Below are positions 8,770 through 35,164 of a stretch of DNA of 40,276 nt, in pieces. The notes below the pieces were generated by a model. That model was not told the origin of the DNA, searched no databases, and was given only the letters and a program-made list of their open reading frames with translations. Position numbers and translations under genes: made by a program. Origin of the DNA: Acidobacteriota bacterium (lineage in GTDB: Bacteria; Acidobacteriota; Thermoanaerobaculia; Thermoanaerobaculales; Sulfomarinibacteraceae). The stretch lies in the NCBI GenBank assembly GCA_013152925.1, contig JAADFK010000231.1, forward strand, positions 1 through 40,276, read 5' to 3'. Within the stretch, counting starts at the first letter, position 1, and the number at the start of each line of letters is the position of its first letter.

Positions 8770-9578
8770 GGGTGTTTCCCTGTCCGCTCCTCGGGACCGA
8801 GGTTGGGCTCCCGGACCGGGTGGAACGGATCGTCTCCCTCTCGCCAAGCCTGACTGACTGCGTGGCTCGCCTTGGCCTCGAGGAACGGCTGGTTGGCCGT
8901 TCCGCCTGGTGCTGGCGCCCGGAGGGCATCGAGCGGTTGCCGGTGGTTGGCTCGTACACGGGGGTACGGCGGGAGGTCCTTGACCGCCTGGCTCCCGATC
9001 TGATCTTGATGACCTCGGGGGTGCAGGAACCGCTGGCCCGGGAGCTCTCCCGTGCCGGCCAGCCGGTCTACGTGGTGCCCCTGCCCGTGACACTCTGGGG
9101 CATCCTGGACAACCTCGCCACGGTCGCCCTGATCGCCGGCGAGGCCGATGCGGCCTTCGGCCCGCTCGGGCGGCTCCACGATGCCGTGGGGGCGCTGCGG
9201 GATATCCTGGAGCCCCGGCCGACGTATGTGGAGATCGACCTCGGGGGGGCCGTCACCTGTGGGCGTGGCTCCTACGCCTACTGGGCGCTGCGGTGGATGG
9301 GGCTCTCGCCCTTGATTCCGCCGGGTGATCGGGCGTGGTCGACGCCGGGGAGCTCGTGGCTGGCGTCTCTCCGACCCGACATCATGGTGTACGACCCACA
9401 GCCCGGCCAGCAGGAGACTGCGGAGAGTGTGCGGGACCGTCTGATGGTGCGGGGCCTGGAGGACTGGCTCGAGAGAGGGATCGAAATCGTTGTGACCGGG
9501 GGCAATGTGCTGGCGCACTACGGGCCCCGGTTGCTCGAGGAGGGCCTTCCCGCTCTTGCCAAACGTCTCAGGCGTTGA
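8766..9578 (+). CDS. BtuF-like (type III) periplasmic-binding-fold protein without signal peptide
   Basis: The 270-residue protein matches the cobalamin/iron-siderophore binding protein fold: RIVSLSPSLTDCVARLGLEERLVGRS near the start, the LPVVGSYTGVRREVLDRLAPDLIL block, a long connecting helix (about 115-145) and a second lobe with LASLRPDIMVYDP. No signal peptide or lipobox is visible, so a cytoplasmic location is likely unless the start is misplaced. Many genomes carry such stand-alone 'cobalamin-binding' proteins; their ligand is uncertain. It overlaps tatD by four bases and ends nine bases from a convergent gene. Confidence 0.75.
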   Translation: MRVFPCPLLGTEVGLPDRVERIVSLSPSLTDCVARLGLEERLVGRSAWCWRPEGIERLPVVGSYTGVRREVLDRLAPDLILMTSGVQEPLARELSRAGQPVYVVPLPVTLWGILDNLATVALIAGEADAAFGPLGRLHDAVGALRDILEPRPTYVEIDLGGAVTCGRGSYAYWALRWMGLSPLIPPGDRAWSTPGSSWLASLRPDIMVYDPQPGQQETAESVRDRLMVRGLEDWLERGIEIVVTGGNVLAHYGPRLLEEGLPALAKRLRR

Positions 9579-9587
9579 TGGAGCAGC

Positions 9588-9977
9588 TCAGTTGCGGGCT
9601 CGGCGGGGACGGCCGGGCCGCCTCCGGACCGAGGTTATGCCGATGGAGATCAACCCTTCGCCCTCGTCGAAAGAGACGTCGAGACGTTTCGGGGCGGGCA
9701 GGGAAATGCTGAACTGATCGAAAAAGCCGGGCGCCTTGAGGCTGACCGAGCGGCGCCGGCGGGTCAGCGGAACCGCACCCTCTTCGTCGCCATTCTTGAG
9801 GATCTTGACGCCGATTCTCTTCTTCGATCGATCGAAAAAGAGCACGGCGTGCGTGGCGTCGAAGAGGCCGAAATCTTCGACGGCTTGGGCATCGAAAGAG
9901 ATCAGTCCGCTTGGCCGGATTGTCGCCTTCGGGCGAGAAGGTTTGGTCGTCTTTGGGATGAATTTCTCGTATGCCAT
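9588..9977 (-). CDS. Conserved-looking hypothetical protein with its own strong promoter
   Basis: I do not recognise a family. The 129-residue protein has a basic N-terminus rich in Lys and Pro, a compact middle (GLISFDAQAVEDFGLFDATH, then AVLFFDRSKKRIGVKIL) that reads like alternating beta strands, and a basic tail of Arg/Pro ending RPGRPRRARN that could bind nucleic acid. No signal peptide or membrane segment. GGAGG precedes the ATG well, and a near-consensus sigma70-type promoter lies 28 bases further up, in an A+T-rich patch unlike its surroundings. It is monocistronic and convergent with the BtuF-like gene. Confidence 0.7.
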   Translation of the reverse strand: MAYEKFIPKTTKPSRPKATIRPSGLISFDAQAVEDFGLFDATHAVLFFDRSKKRIGVKILKNGDEEGAVPLTRRRRSVSLKAPGFFDQFSISLPAPKRLDVSFDEGEGLISIGITSVRRRPGRPRRARN

Positions 9978-20713: not shown

Positions 20714-21655
20714 TCAGAAGGATGCTGCCGTGCTTCGCTGCTCTCGCAGTGACATGTGGATGCCTCCAAGCTGAGGGATCGGGTGTCTCCTCCTCAAGTA
20801 GACCCCATTCTCTCTCAGTAGGGCGAGCTGTTCCCGGAGGAAGCTCTCGCTTCCGATGGCCAGGCCATCGACGAAGTACCTGAGCCGCCTGCGATAGAGG
20901 CCGCGGACAGAAAACCCGCGGGCGATCTCCTGCGTCAGTACGTCTTGCGAGAGGGCCTTCTGTCCCTCTTTCGTCGGCACGCTCCCACGGTGGTACAGGC
21001 GTTCCCGGTACTCCGTCAATGCCCTCTCCCCATCCGGCCGATCGAAGAAGGTCTGCAGCGGCGCCAGCCAGCTGTCCGTGCCCAGCTCACGCTGGATCAA
21101 CGATGAGCCCTGCCACTCTTCCGGGCGCTCCACCAGCCCGGCCCGAACCGGATTGAGCTCGACGTACAGCATGCAATCCAGTACGGCCCTCAGGTCCGCC
21201 AGGTACACCGATTTGAAACGGTCGGCCCAGAACCGCCCGCGCCGTTGATAGCTCCGGTTGTACCACCGGGCGAATGCCGACTGGATGTTCCGCATGTACT
21301 CCGAGACGTCGAAGAGGCGCTTCCGGTAGTGTTCCCAGTCCGGTTCCGTCCACAGGTCGAGCCGGGCCTGTGAAGCCTTTCCGGGATACATCAGGCGAGC
21401 CCTGGCGCGGAGCTCCTCTTGATCTGCCGGGCGGGGTCGGTCGAACTTCACCACCAGGTGGTAGTGATTGCCCATGACGCAGAACGCCGCCACTTCGCAG
21501 AAGTAGATGGCCGAGAAGTGCCGGATCGTCTCGATGAGACGGCGCATGGGGACAGCGTGCGACAAGGGGTAGTCTCCCTTGTACGCGGCAACGCGGCTGT
21601 AGAGGTGATACCACGCGTCTGTTTGTGTGAACTTCAATCTGCCGATTCGAGGCAT
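20714..21655 (-). CDS. REP-associated tyrosine transposase-like protein (RayT/TnpA-REP group)
   Basis: 313-residue Y1/HUH single-strand nuclease relative. It has WYHLYSRV near residue 15, the HUH motif in VMGNHYHLVV (His64 and His66), a helix MRNIQSAFARWYNRSYQRRG (121-140), FWADRFKSVY and the LYVELNPVRAGLVERPEEW block common to these domesticated transposases. Where related families carry the catalytic Tyr (GxY before the xYN), this protein has Phe128; Tyr132 follows four residues later. The C-terminal 100 residues are helical. GGAGG precedes the ATG. No terminal inverted repeats of an IS are seen; these proteins typically spread REP palindromes. Confidence 0.88.
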   Translation of the reverse strand: MPRIGRLKFTQTDAWYHLYSRVAAYKGDYPLSHAVPMRRLIETIRHFSAIYFCEVAAFCVMGNHYHLVVKFDRPRPADQEELRARARLMYPGKASQARLDLWTEPDWEHYRKRLFDVSEYMRNIQSAFARWYNRSYQRRGRFWADRFKSVYLADLRAVLDCMLYVELNPVRAGLVERPEEWQGSSLIQRELGTDSWLAPLQTFFDRPDGERALTEYRERLYHRGSVPTKEGQKALSQDVLTQEIARGFSVRGLYRRRLRYFVDGLAIGSESFLREQLALLRENGVYLRRRHPIPQLGGIHMSLREQRSTAASF

Positions 21656-31458: not shown

Positions 31459-32994
31459 ATGGGTGGTACGGCACTGATCTCGGTTTCGGACAAGAGTGGG
31501 CTGGAGCGCCTGGGACCGGGCCTGGCAGAGCTGGGCTGGACGCTGCTCTCCACGGGCGGTACGGCGCGGGCCCTCAGGGAGGCCGGGTGCGAGGTGGTGG
31601 ACGTGGGCAGCTACACAGGCTTCCCGGAGATCCTGGACGGGCGGGTCAAGACGCTGCACCCCAAGGTCTTTGCCGGGATCCTGGCCGCGCCCTCGGAGGA
31701 GCACCGCCGGCAGCTCCAGGAGCTCGACATCCCTGCCATCGACCTGGTGATCGTCAACCTCTACCCCTTCCGCGAGACAGTGGCCCGCGAGGGCGTCGGA
31801 TTGGCGGAGGCCGTGGAGCAGATCGACATCGGCGGGCCGAGCCTGGTCCGTGCGGCGGCCAAGAACCACGCTCGCGTCGCTGTGGTCGTCGATCCTGCGG
31901 ACTATGGTGAGCTGCTCGAACGGCTCGCCAGCGAGGGAATGGACGAGGCGTACCGGCAGGGACTGGCCCTCAAGGCCTACCGGCACACGGCGGCGTACGA
32001 CGCCGCCATATCGGCCCACCTGCCGGGGCTGATGGACGGCCGGCCGAGCCCGGCGGCGGTGGTGGCCGAGCGGCTCCTGGTGGCCGAGGAGATCCCGCTC
32101 CGCTACGGGGAGAACCCGCACCAGTGGGGGCTCCTGGCCCGCGTTCCCGGCCTCGGCGGGCTGGCCTCGGCCCGGCAGCTCCAGGGCAAGGCGCTGTCGT
32201 ACAACAACCTTGGCGACACCAGCGGCGCCTGGCGCCTGGTGTGGGACCTGCCCGGCGCGGGCGTGGCGGTGATCAAGCACGCCAACCCCTGCGGTGTCGG
32301 GCTCGGGGAGTCCATGGTGGAGGCCTTCCGCAAGGCGCGGGCCACCGATCCCATCTCGGCCTTCGGCGGGGTGGTGGCGGCCAACCGGCCGATCGACGAA
32401 TCCTTCGCGGAGGCCGTGGTGGAGCAGTTCGCCGAGGTGGTCATCGCGCCCGAGGTGGACGCGGCGGCGCGGGAGATCTTTTCGCGGAAGAAGAACCTGC
32501 GTGTGCTCGAATGCGAGGGGCCGGCCGACGATCCCGTGGTCTTCAAGTCCATGGACGGCGGCATCCTCCTCCAGGAGGCCGACCGCGGCTTCGAGGACGA
32601 GACGTGGAAGGTTGTCACGGAGAAGAAGCCCACCGATGCGGAGCGCCGGGCGCTCGATCTCAACTGGCGGGTGGTCAAGCACGTGGGCTCCAACGCCATC
32701 GTCGTGGGTGGCCCGGAGCAGGTGATGGGTATCGGCGCCGGCCAGATGAGCCGGGTGGACGCCGCCAAGATCGCCGTGGCCAAGGCCCGGGAGATGGGCC
32801 ACGAGCTGGAGGGCAGCGTGGCGGCGTCGGACGCCTTCTTCCCCTTCCCCGACGGGGTGGAGGCCCTGGCCGAGGCGGGGATCCGGGCCGTGATCCAGCC
32901 CGGCGGGTCCATCCGCGACGCCAAGGTCATCGAGGCCGCCGACGCCGTCGGTATCGCCATGGTCTTCACCGGCAGGCGCCACTTCCGCCACTGA
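31459..32994 (+). CDS. purH: Bifunctional AICAR transformylase/IMP cyclohydrolase PurH
   Basis: Catalyses the last two steps of purine synthesis. The 511-residue protein has the cyclohydrolase half (ALISVSDKSGLERLGPGL, LLSTGGTARALREAG, GRVKTLHPKVFAGIL, LVIVNLYPF, IDIGGPSLVRAAAKN) and the AICAR-formyltransferase half (LRYGENPHQ, GKALSYNNLGDT, IKHANPCGVG with catalytic Lys/His, DPISAFGGVVAANRP). It ends with the canonical VFTGRRHFRH. GGAGG stands six to seven bases before the ATG, and TACAAT (31422-31427) is a possible -10. The start follows the preceding glycosyltransferase stop by 116 bases. Confidence 0.97.
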   Translation: MGGTALISVSDKSGLERLGPGLAELGWTLLSTGGTARALREAGCEVVDVGSYTGFPEILDGRVKTLHPKVFAGILAAPSEEHRRQLQELDIPAIDLVIVNLYPFRETVAREGVGLAEAVEQIDIGGPSLVRAAAKNHARVAVVVDPADYGELLERLASEGMDEAYRQGLALKAYRHTAAYDAAISAHLPGLMDGRPSPAAVVAERLLVAEEIPLRYGENPHQWGLLARVPGLGGLASARQLQGKALSYNNLGDTSGAWRLVWDLPGAGVAVIKHANPCGVGLGESMVEAFRKARATDPISAFGGVVAANRPIDESFAEAVVEQFAEVVIAPEVDAAAREIFSRKKNLRVLECEGPADDPVVFKSMDGGILLQEADRGFEDETWKVVTEKKPTDAERRALDLNWRVVKHVGSNAIVVGGPEQVMGIGAGQMSRVDAAKIAVAKAREMGHELEGSVAASDAFFPFPDGVEALAEAGIRAVIQPGGSIRDAKVIEAADAVGIAMVFTGRRHFRH

Positions 32995-33022
32995 GTCGCG
33001 GGGTGGTGTGGGCGGGCATGGT

Positions 33023-33041
33023 CCGCCGTCTTTGACGGCGG
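33023..33041. repeat. Perfect hairpin just after purH
   Basis: CCGCCGTC-TTT-GACGGCGG, 8-bp stem and 3-base loop, 28 bases after the purH stop. No T-run follows on either strand, so it may be a terminator lacking a U-tract or another short palindrome of the kind scattered through this gap. Confidence 0.45.
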
Positions 33042-33204
33042 CAACGGGCCGCTCGGTGCGGGCCGCTCGTGAGCCTTTGGCTCTCGGCGTCCCTTCCCTC
33101 GCGTCCCTGCGTCCCGGCCGAGGTGGCCGGTCCGCCCATGCCCGCGTGCTCCTGGGCATCGAGGTTGTTTCGGCGGTGTTGCTCCCCCTCCCCCCTGTAT
33201 GGGA

Positions 33205-33328
33205 GGGATCGGGCGGGATCGCCCTCTCGCAGGCCGGAGCTGCGTCCGCATCGTCGGGACGGCCACTAGGCCAGTCCCTCCTCACTTCCTCGCTCCGGCT
33301 CCGCGAGAGAACGATCCCGCCCGATCCC
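33205..33328. repeat. 124-base long imperfect hairpin with three nested stems
   Basis: A 17-bp perfect stem (33205-33221 with 33312-33328), then CTCTCGC with GCGAGAG (33224-33230 / 33303-33309), then CCGGAGC with GCTCCGG (33234-33240 / 33292-33298). The 51-base interior holds GGGACGGCC and GGCCAGTCCC around ACTA (33256-33278). It has no coding content. It lies next to the branched structure at 33352-33581 and could be part of the same RNA or of a fold-back mobile element. Confidence 0.6.
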
Positions 33329-33351
33329 CCGGGTGCTCATTGGCGTGGCGC

Positions 33352-33581
33352 GGCCCTGTGCGCCCTTTCGGGCGCAGGCTGCTTACGCAGCCCGGCGGGG
33401 AGGAGGCGGGCCGTCGCCTCGGTTCGGGGGCTGCACCCGTCCAGGGGAGCGGAGAGCCCGTGCTCGGCAGCTTACGCTCGGGGGACCTCGCACCAAGCTA
33501 CCTGTGCTCGTGCCCTCCGCACCCCTGGACGGGATGGCCCCTCACCTCGGGCCGGCCCACCTCCCGCCCCGCCGCAGGGCC
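33352..33581 (-). ncRNA. Candidate structured RNA with multibranch junction and GNRA loops
   Basis: Nested pairings close the whole segment: GGCCCTG with CAGGGCC (33352-33358 / 33575-33581); CGGCGGGG with CCCCGCCG (33393-33400 / 33567-33574); a 10-pair continuation (33402-33412 / 33554-33565); GGTTCGGGGGC with GCCCCTCACC (33421-33431 / 33537-33546, one wobble, mismatches and a bulge); and CCCGTCCAGGGG with CCCCTGGACGGG (33436-33447 / 33522-33533), then GCGGAG with CTCCGC (33449-33454 / 33515-33520). Exactly filling the space between the first two stems are two abutting perfect hairpins (33359-33376, 33377-33392) whose loops read GAAA and GTAA on the minus strand, both GNRA tetraloops. That asymmetry picks the minus strand. 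No known RNA family was recognised; no promoter is evident. Confidence 0.5.
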
Positions 33582-33653
33582 CGGTTCATTGGGCGCGCTC
33601 GGATGGCCGGGTGTGTCGTTCTTGTGGACGGTCGTGATCTCGTCACTTGGAGG

Positions 33654-33874: not shown

Positions 33875-34070
33875 ATCGCACCCCGGGCGAAGGGCAGGCT
33901 TCACCTGACGGCCAAGGAGCAGCTCGCGATGGGTGGCACGTGCCGGGTACGAGCTTCTCGCTGACATCGGTGACGTCCTCGGCGCGAAGGGGAGAAGGTC
34001 GTACCGGGCAATGCGCGGGGAGGGCGTCAGAAGTATTGGCCGGGCATCGATGGAGGCGTCCCGCCCCGGA

Positions 34071-34125
34071 CCCCGGCGGGAGCTTCGTGGCAGGGCAAGC
34101 TGCCCACGCGTGGCTCCCGCCGGGG
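34071..34125. repeat. Long hairpin with 13-bp perfect outer stem
   Basis: CCCCGGCGGGAGC (34071-34083) pairs with GCTCCCGCCGGGG (34113-34125). Inside, GGGCA-AGC-TGCCC forms a second stem. The right arm runs into the dispersed repeat at 34116-34193. Confidence 0.5.
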
Positions 34126-34193
34126 GAGGACGGCGTTTCCATGCGGACATGCCGCCGTCCGCATGGGGACGGACGCCGGAGCCAAGGCGAAGG
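34116..34193 (+). repeat. Dispersed intergenic repeat, copy 1
   Basis: About 78 bases resembling 40036-40110: the first 33 bases (CCCGCCGG-x-GGAGGA-x-, then GGCGTTTCC-x-TGCGG) match at about 29 positions, and GTCCGCA, ACGGACGC and CGAAG follow in the same order. Internal palindromes (ATGCGGAC/GTCCGCAT) are present. Not coding. Confidence 0.5.
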
Positions 34194-34221
34194 GTACCCC
34201 GCGGCCTGCGGAATTCGGGAG

Positions 34222-34251
34222 AGAAGAAAACGGCCCGGCGTGAGCCGGGCC
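34222..34251 (-). terminator. Rho-independent terminator of sucCD
   Basis: Minus strand: GGCCCGGC-TCAC-GCCGGGCC, a perfect 8-bp G+C stem with a 4-base loop, followed by GTTTTCTTCTC. It lies 25 bases after the sucD stop and is the clearest intrinsic terminator in the window. Confidence 0.9.
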
Positions 34252-34276
34252 GTCGGGTTCGTGTCGTGCCCAGGAA

Positions 34277-35164
<888 letters not shown>

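Follow-up and report, generated by a model that had tools for sequence, protein, structure and literature searches.

What is the branched structure that lies between purH and sucD in this stretch of Acidobacteriota DNA? In the window, i.e., the whole stretch of 40,276 nucleotides analysed here, the first-pass annotation had singled out a 230-nt segment (33352-33581) with two GNRA tetraloops, and had read it as a minus-strand non-coding RNA or a structured mobile element. The observation of the fold is confirmed and the structure is real, while its interpretation is partly supported. The element most likely represents a new family of structured, BIME/SLS-like interspersed repeats in one Thermoanaerobaculia family. 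The segment is probably one domain (domain A) of a composite, non-coding, lineage-specific intergenic repeat of about 570 nt, which would spread as a non-autonomous mobile element.

The two flanking genes are convergent: purH (31474-32994, plus strand; NCBIfam TIGR00355, E 6.7e-181) and sucD (34277-35164, minus strand; NCBIfam TIGR01019, E 9.7e-140). SucD carries six consecutive histidines at its C terminus (ALEHHHHHH), a native tail that resembles a His-tag. The block between both genes is the top folding outlier of the 40-kb window, according to a whole-window scan with G-U pairing off, and contains three adjacent large quasi-palindromes, domains A, B and C (33012-33581), with a further module, D, beyond them towards sucD, the order on the minus strand being D, A, B, C. 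Domain B (33203-33330, minus strand) is a near-perfect long hairpin (fold z -9.7), and domain C (33012-33145, minus strand) is a branched quasi-palindrome (fold z -8.2). Module D (34007-34182), located between sucD and domain A, is a structured repeat with a fold z of -4.1 over approximately 34000-34276. A good intrinsic terminator belonging to sucD itself (34254-34229, minus strand) lies between this gene and the repeats, and precedes the element. A coding origin of the block was discarded, five ORFs over it having given no Pfam match.

Domain A (33352-33581, minus strand) consists of a long irregular stem inside the outer stems described by the first-pass annotation, ending on the 3' side (minus-strand sense) in two basal hairpins. 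The fold is present exactly where it had been placed. The stem half GGCCCTG (33352-33358) is followed by the hairpins TGCGCCC-TTTC-GGGCGCA (33359-33376) and GGCTGC-TTAC-GCAGCC (33377-33392), and then by the stem CGGCGGGG, which begins at 33393; the junction where the two hairpins pack between the stem halves (33359-33392) indeed contains no unpaired base. On the minus strand, their loops in the window copy are GAAA and GTAA, respectively, as reported. The minimum free energy of the domain on this strand is -182.3 kcal/mol, against -126.0 +/- 5.6 for 200 dinucleotide shuffles (z -10.0), and on the plus strand it is -164.3 kcal/mol (z -8.0). No shuffle was as good in either case (0/200), the folding energy thus being far better than that of shuffled sequence on both strands. 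What had been missed is the extent of the structure, that is, domains B and C, module D, and the dispersed, repeated nature of the whole.

This repeated nature is evident in four relatives (G007, G009, G013 and G005) belonging to the same Thermoanaerobaculia family as the genome of the window (G000). The region 33184-33593, comprising domains A and B (about 400 nt), matches G007 many times, collinearly and with about 70% identity. Using one G007 copy as the query, no fewer than 19 copies close to full length (about 535 nt) are found in this genome (80-89% identity to the query), and there are also partial and solo modules, amounting to at least 56 places, with 40 of 178 candidates scored. The aligned G007 copies have sharp common ends, and most of their flanks are unrelated. 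The inner arm of domain B (CTGRCC..GGYCG...CGACGA) is common to the G007 and G009 elements in the alignments. As for the window's own genome, copies of domain C exist on contigs C135, C214 and C228 (75-86% identity), and a second copy of module D is found on C228 (74%), its orientation with respect to the C module being reversed there; B/C/D-like modules are therefore repeated in this genome, domain A being single. Many copies are located at contig ends, as is expected of repeats in fragmented assemblies, and the repeats seem to break the assemblies of carrier genomes at their copies. At the G007 loci L042 (e.g., 2102-2182), L051 and L145, domain C gives a weak match (23-29 bits) to the domain-A model, a similarity which suggests that domain C may be a shortened relative of domain A.

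The distribution of domain A was established with a covariance model (R1) of its 115-nt conserved core (33427-33541, minus strand), delimited through alignments A1 and A3, RNAalifold and pair counts. Over 149 genomes of the class, R1 detects 23 copies in G007, 11 in G009, eight in G013, four in G005 and one in the window's own genome, numbers that are lower bounds because the class and phylum searches used stricter filters, by which weak matches may be lost, and capped the candidates scored in each genome. The five carriers represent five genera, all of them within one family of Thermoanaerobaculia (Acidobacteriota), and R1 finds no domain A in 15 other members of this family, including G008, a congener of G013. 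No carrier outside these lineages appeared in a sample of 396 genomes of the phylum. A specific motif of the A core has three matches among approximately 85,000 species genomes, in a collection that possibly does not include the window's own genome; all three are Acidobacteriota MAGs, one of them labelled Thermoanaerobaculia. The same motif has no match in viral contigs and blastn gave no match, and a plasmid or phage origin was consequently rejected. Domain A is thus multicopy and patchy in its distribution, and it is not a single-copy RNA gene.

The homologues carry abundant compensatory changes in their stems. In the structure-blind MAFFT alignment A3, which includes 29 copies, 94% of the cells pair, compared with about 40% when the partners are slid; changes on both sides affect 22 of the 33 pairs (11.2 in shuffles, 6-8 in slid controls), and the covariation score is 0.35 (0.14 shuffled, 0.05-0.08 slid), although these numbers are not probabilities, since the sequences are related, and the set from which the structure was obtained overlaps with this one. 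Despite this kinship and overlap, the gap between real and slid pairings is still very large. In addition, the G009 copies, which remained outside model building, split into two sub-types separated by many paired changes in the same stem. The base pairing of domain A is therefore conserved across genera by compensatory substitutions. None of the outcomes that the first-pass annotation had named as refuting it (no homologues, stems lacking compensatory changes, or folding no better than in shuffles) was obtained. Within the covarying stems of the core there are internal loops that keep their sequence across lineages, namely CAU/UGCA, GCAG/GAGCAC and UUGG..CGAG/CGAG..UAAG, the last with facing G-A steps. 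Among the G007 copies, variation is 3.4 times higher in unpaired columns than in paired ones (0.161 vs. 0.047), the latter having been picked by software with a preference for conserved columns.

Is the form under selection RNA or single-stranded DNA? The first-pass annotation had relied on the GNRA tetraloops as a hallmark of RNA, an argument that fails in the relatives, where the same two hairpins keep their position but mostly carry other loops. Thus, the G007 copies have triloops (GCA/ACA and AAC, TAC, ACC, ATC, GAA), the loop in readable G009 copies is GAAC, GACA or GCAA, and conserved GNRA tetraloops were not found among the copies of these two genomes. The minus-strand sense folds better than the plus, both in the window and in G007. 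A first wobble count gave 82 G-U against 20 A-C, on a structure chosen on the minus strand; when only the pairs predicted by both strands are considered, the ratio becomes 21:19 (29 sequences) or 17:19 (within G007). With the excess gone on strand-neutral pairs, G-U bias was abandoned as a proof of RNA, and the one-strand bias claimed for the structure is unproven. Seven lineage consensus sequences show 21:6 on the union of the pairs of both strands and 9:6 on the shared ones, an excess due partly to one invariant G-U pair and to fold-selection bias. As the first-pass annotation had anticipated, no known RNA family matches: of the 4227 Rfam models, none was matched by the element or by three homologues, even with the threshold relaxed to E <= 1, and across the entire window Rfam gave a single tRNA above gathering score. 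An RNA function of the element is no more than possible.

The genomic placement of the copies, which are mainly intergenic, shows no preference of orientation. Both flanking genes could be called for 18 copies, eight of them between convergent genes, ten between tandem genes (three sense, seven antisense) and none between divergent genes, with orientations taken from GC3-based gene calls and not from curated annotation. An initial trend towards sense copies located downstream of genes did not hold up once gene calling had improved and further genomes were added, and the placement of the copies gives no indication of co-transcription in a fixed orientation. At one orthologous site, the intergenic region of G013 (C25) measures 290 nt including the element, whereas that of its congener G008 (C62) has 92 nt and no element, although these flanks are too diverged to read a target-site duplication or an exact empty site. 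The patchy presence, the amplification within genomes, the existence of separate modules, and the G013/G008 site argue for a mobile or recently mobile repeat, and the family is probably mobile. Of the two alternatives originally offered, the mobile element thus suits a dispersed multicopy repeat better, an RNA function being possible only.

It can be proposed that the composite, with the order A-B-C in the minus-strand sense and some modules also copied separately, spreads as a non-autonomous mobile element whose folded form would be recognised by a trans-acting enzyme, either as an RNA copy or as the single-stranded DNA that arises in replication. Under such recognition, the stems could drift as long as pairing is kept, the recognition loops would be fixed, and apical loops and linkers would vary freely; copies would persist for the most part at sites where promoters stay intact. 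It is conceivable, with low probability, that selection acts on a large folded RNA or ssDNA of several domains, with its own conserved internal-loop motifs and copied by an enzyme encoded elsewhere, which would make it a structure-driven non-autonomous transposon with no tie to any known transposase family.

Against a mobile element, no mobilising gene was identified, since no recurrent ORF was found beside 35 copies. The window encodes a RAYT-like Y1 transposase (20714-21655, minus strand; Pfam Y1_Tnp, E 6.5e-07), which scores 58 bits with the NCBIfam model REP_Tyr_transpos (REP-associated tyrosine transposase), below its 80-bit cut-off, and no repeat modules lie near this ORF. Similarly, no match to the modules was obtained at the Y1/RAYT loci examined (14 in carrier genomes, 10 from the rest of the family, and that of the window), some of which are cut by contig ends, and a RAYT/REP origin was rejected on this basis. 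Both a group II intron and an IscB/TnpB guide RNA would be expected to give an Rfam match or to have a neighbouring ORF, and neither was seen; both are unlikely. An integron attC site is unlikely too, no attC-type end boxes being visible by eye.

Among the alternatives to a mobile repeat, the one with the most to recommend it is a true structured non-coding RNA, transcribed from each copy in the minus-strand sense and acting as such, perhaps bound to a protein, its multicopy state being incidental. The conserved internal loops would also suit a functional RNA, as they are non-canonical, keep their sequence and place facing G-A steps within covarying stems, and both the better folding of the minus-strand sense and the 21 G-U against 6 A-C cells of the lineage consensus sequences go in the same direction. 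This reading is nevertheless unlikely: G-U equals A-C once strand-neutral pairs are used, tandem intergenes hold antisense copies at least as often as sense ones, and copy number is patchy to the point of absence from the congener G008. Moreover, sucD terminates ahead of the element, and a scan for sigma-70-type promoters at the element found none, although such a scan says little in this kind of organism.

The placement of eight of the 18 fully flanked copies between convergent genes, and of none between divergent ones, would be expected if the repeat had been domesticated as structured DNA or RNA serving as bidirectional terminators or insulators. That role is very improbable, since sucD already has a terminator and neither 570 nt nor conserved internal loops would be needed for it. 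Nor does the element resemble an intrinsic terminator, because the terminator-like sites in the region are those of sucD or lie inside its gene, save for one weak plus-strand call (33592-33617). The least probable explanation is that the quasi-palindromes are kept without selection by strand-switch repair between their arms, which would maintain complementarity and mimic covariation. Long near-perfect arms such as those of domain B make template switching plausible, yet correction between arms would erase the internal-loop mismatches, which are among the most conserved positions, and the dispersal of the copies would be left unexplained.

A dispersed structured repeat has precedents among bacterial sequences. 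The catalogue of stem-loop-containing (SLS) repeats comprises 92 families, most below 200 bp and some of several hundred, such as Ppu-1 of Pseudomonas putida, with 617 bp and 39 intergenic copies (Cozzuto et al. 2008, PMC2267715). Like these families, the present one is repeated within a genome, mainly intergenic, and endowed with a common predicted structure better than chance, with comparable size and copy number in the catalogue, a likeness that rests on the descriptions of those families. It therefore fits the defining features of an SLS-type interspersed structured repeat, differing in its three consecutive long quasi-palindromic domains, its conserved internal loops and its covariation in five genera. 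REP elements, which include GTAG- and CGTC-tagged repeats, sit between convergent and tandem genes (PMC3733652). With REP/BIME sequences the family shares a mosaic of palindromic intergenic modules, this same placement, and the presence of RAYT-like genes in the genomes; in contrast, its modules measure 110-230 nt, compared with 20-40 nt for a REP unit, and the RAYT loci examined are not flanked by them. MITE-like small mobile sequences (ERIC, YPAL, Correia) are also non-autonomous, foldable, dispersed repeats; a MITE would in addition be expected to share terminal inverted repeats with an autonomous transposon and to have a target-site duplication, the latter being unreadable at the G013/G008 site, with its diverged flanks. 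Bacteria also have large structured RNAs such as HEARO, GOLLD and ROOL, and some RNAs of this type are multicopy. The element resembles these Rfam families in its large branched fold, and differs from them in having neither an Rfam match (4227 models, E <= 1) nor a partner ORF.

Structured interspersed repeats are themselves a known kind of sequence, this being an undescribed family from a poorly studied bacterial group; a literature search for repeat elements in Thermoanaerobaculia, whose coverage largely excluded subscription journals, found none. The evidence that selection holds a 230-nt fold while the element spreads is unusually strong. The family would offer a tractable case for identifying the enzyme that reads these folds, and for deciding between folded RNA and single-stranded DNA as the mobile form.

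Other repeats accompany the family in these genomes. One REP-like sequence, of the CATTCCGACCAAGCGAGCG..GGAGGAATCTC type, is embedded in a cluster of C and D modules of the window's own genome (locus L181 on contig C228, approximately 9450-9600), and short stretches matching it are found on several contigs there. In G013, the flanks of a domain-A copy led to the detection of several other modules of about 120 nt, present dozens of times and terminating contigs (e.g., loci L070-L093).
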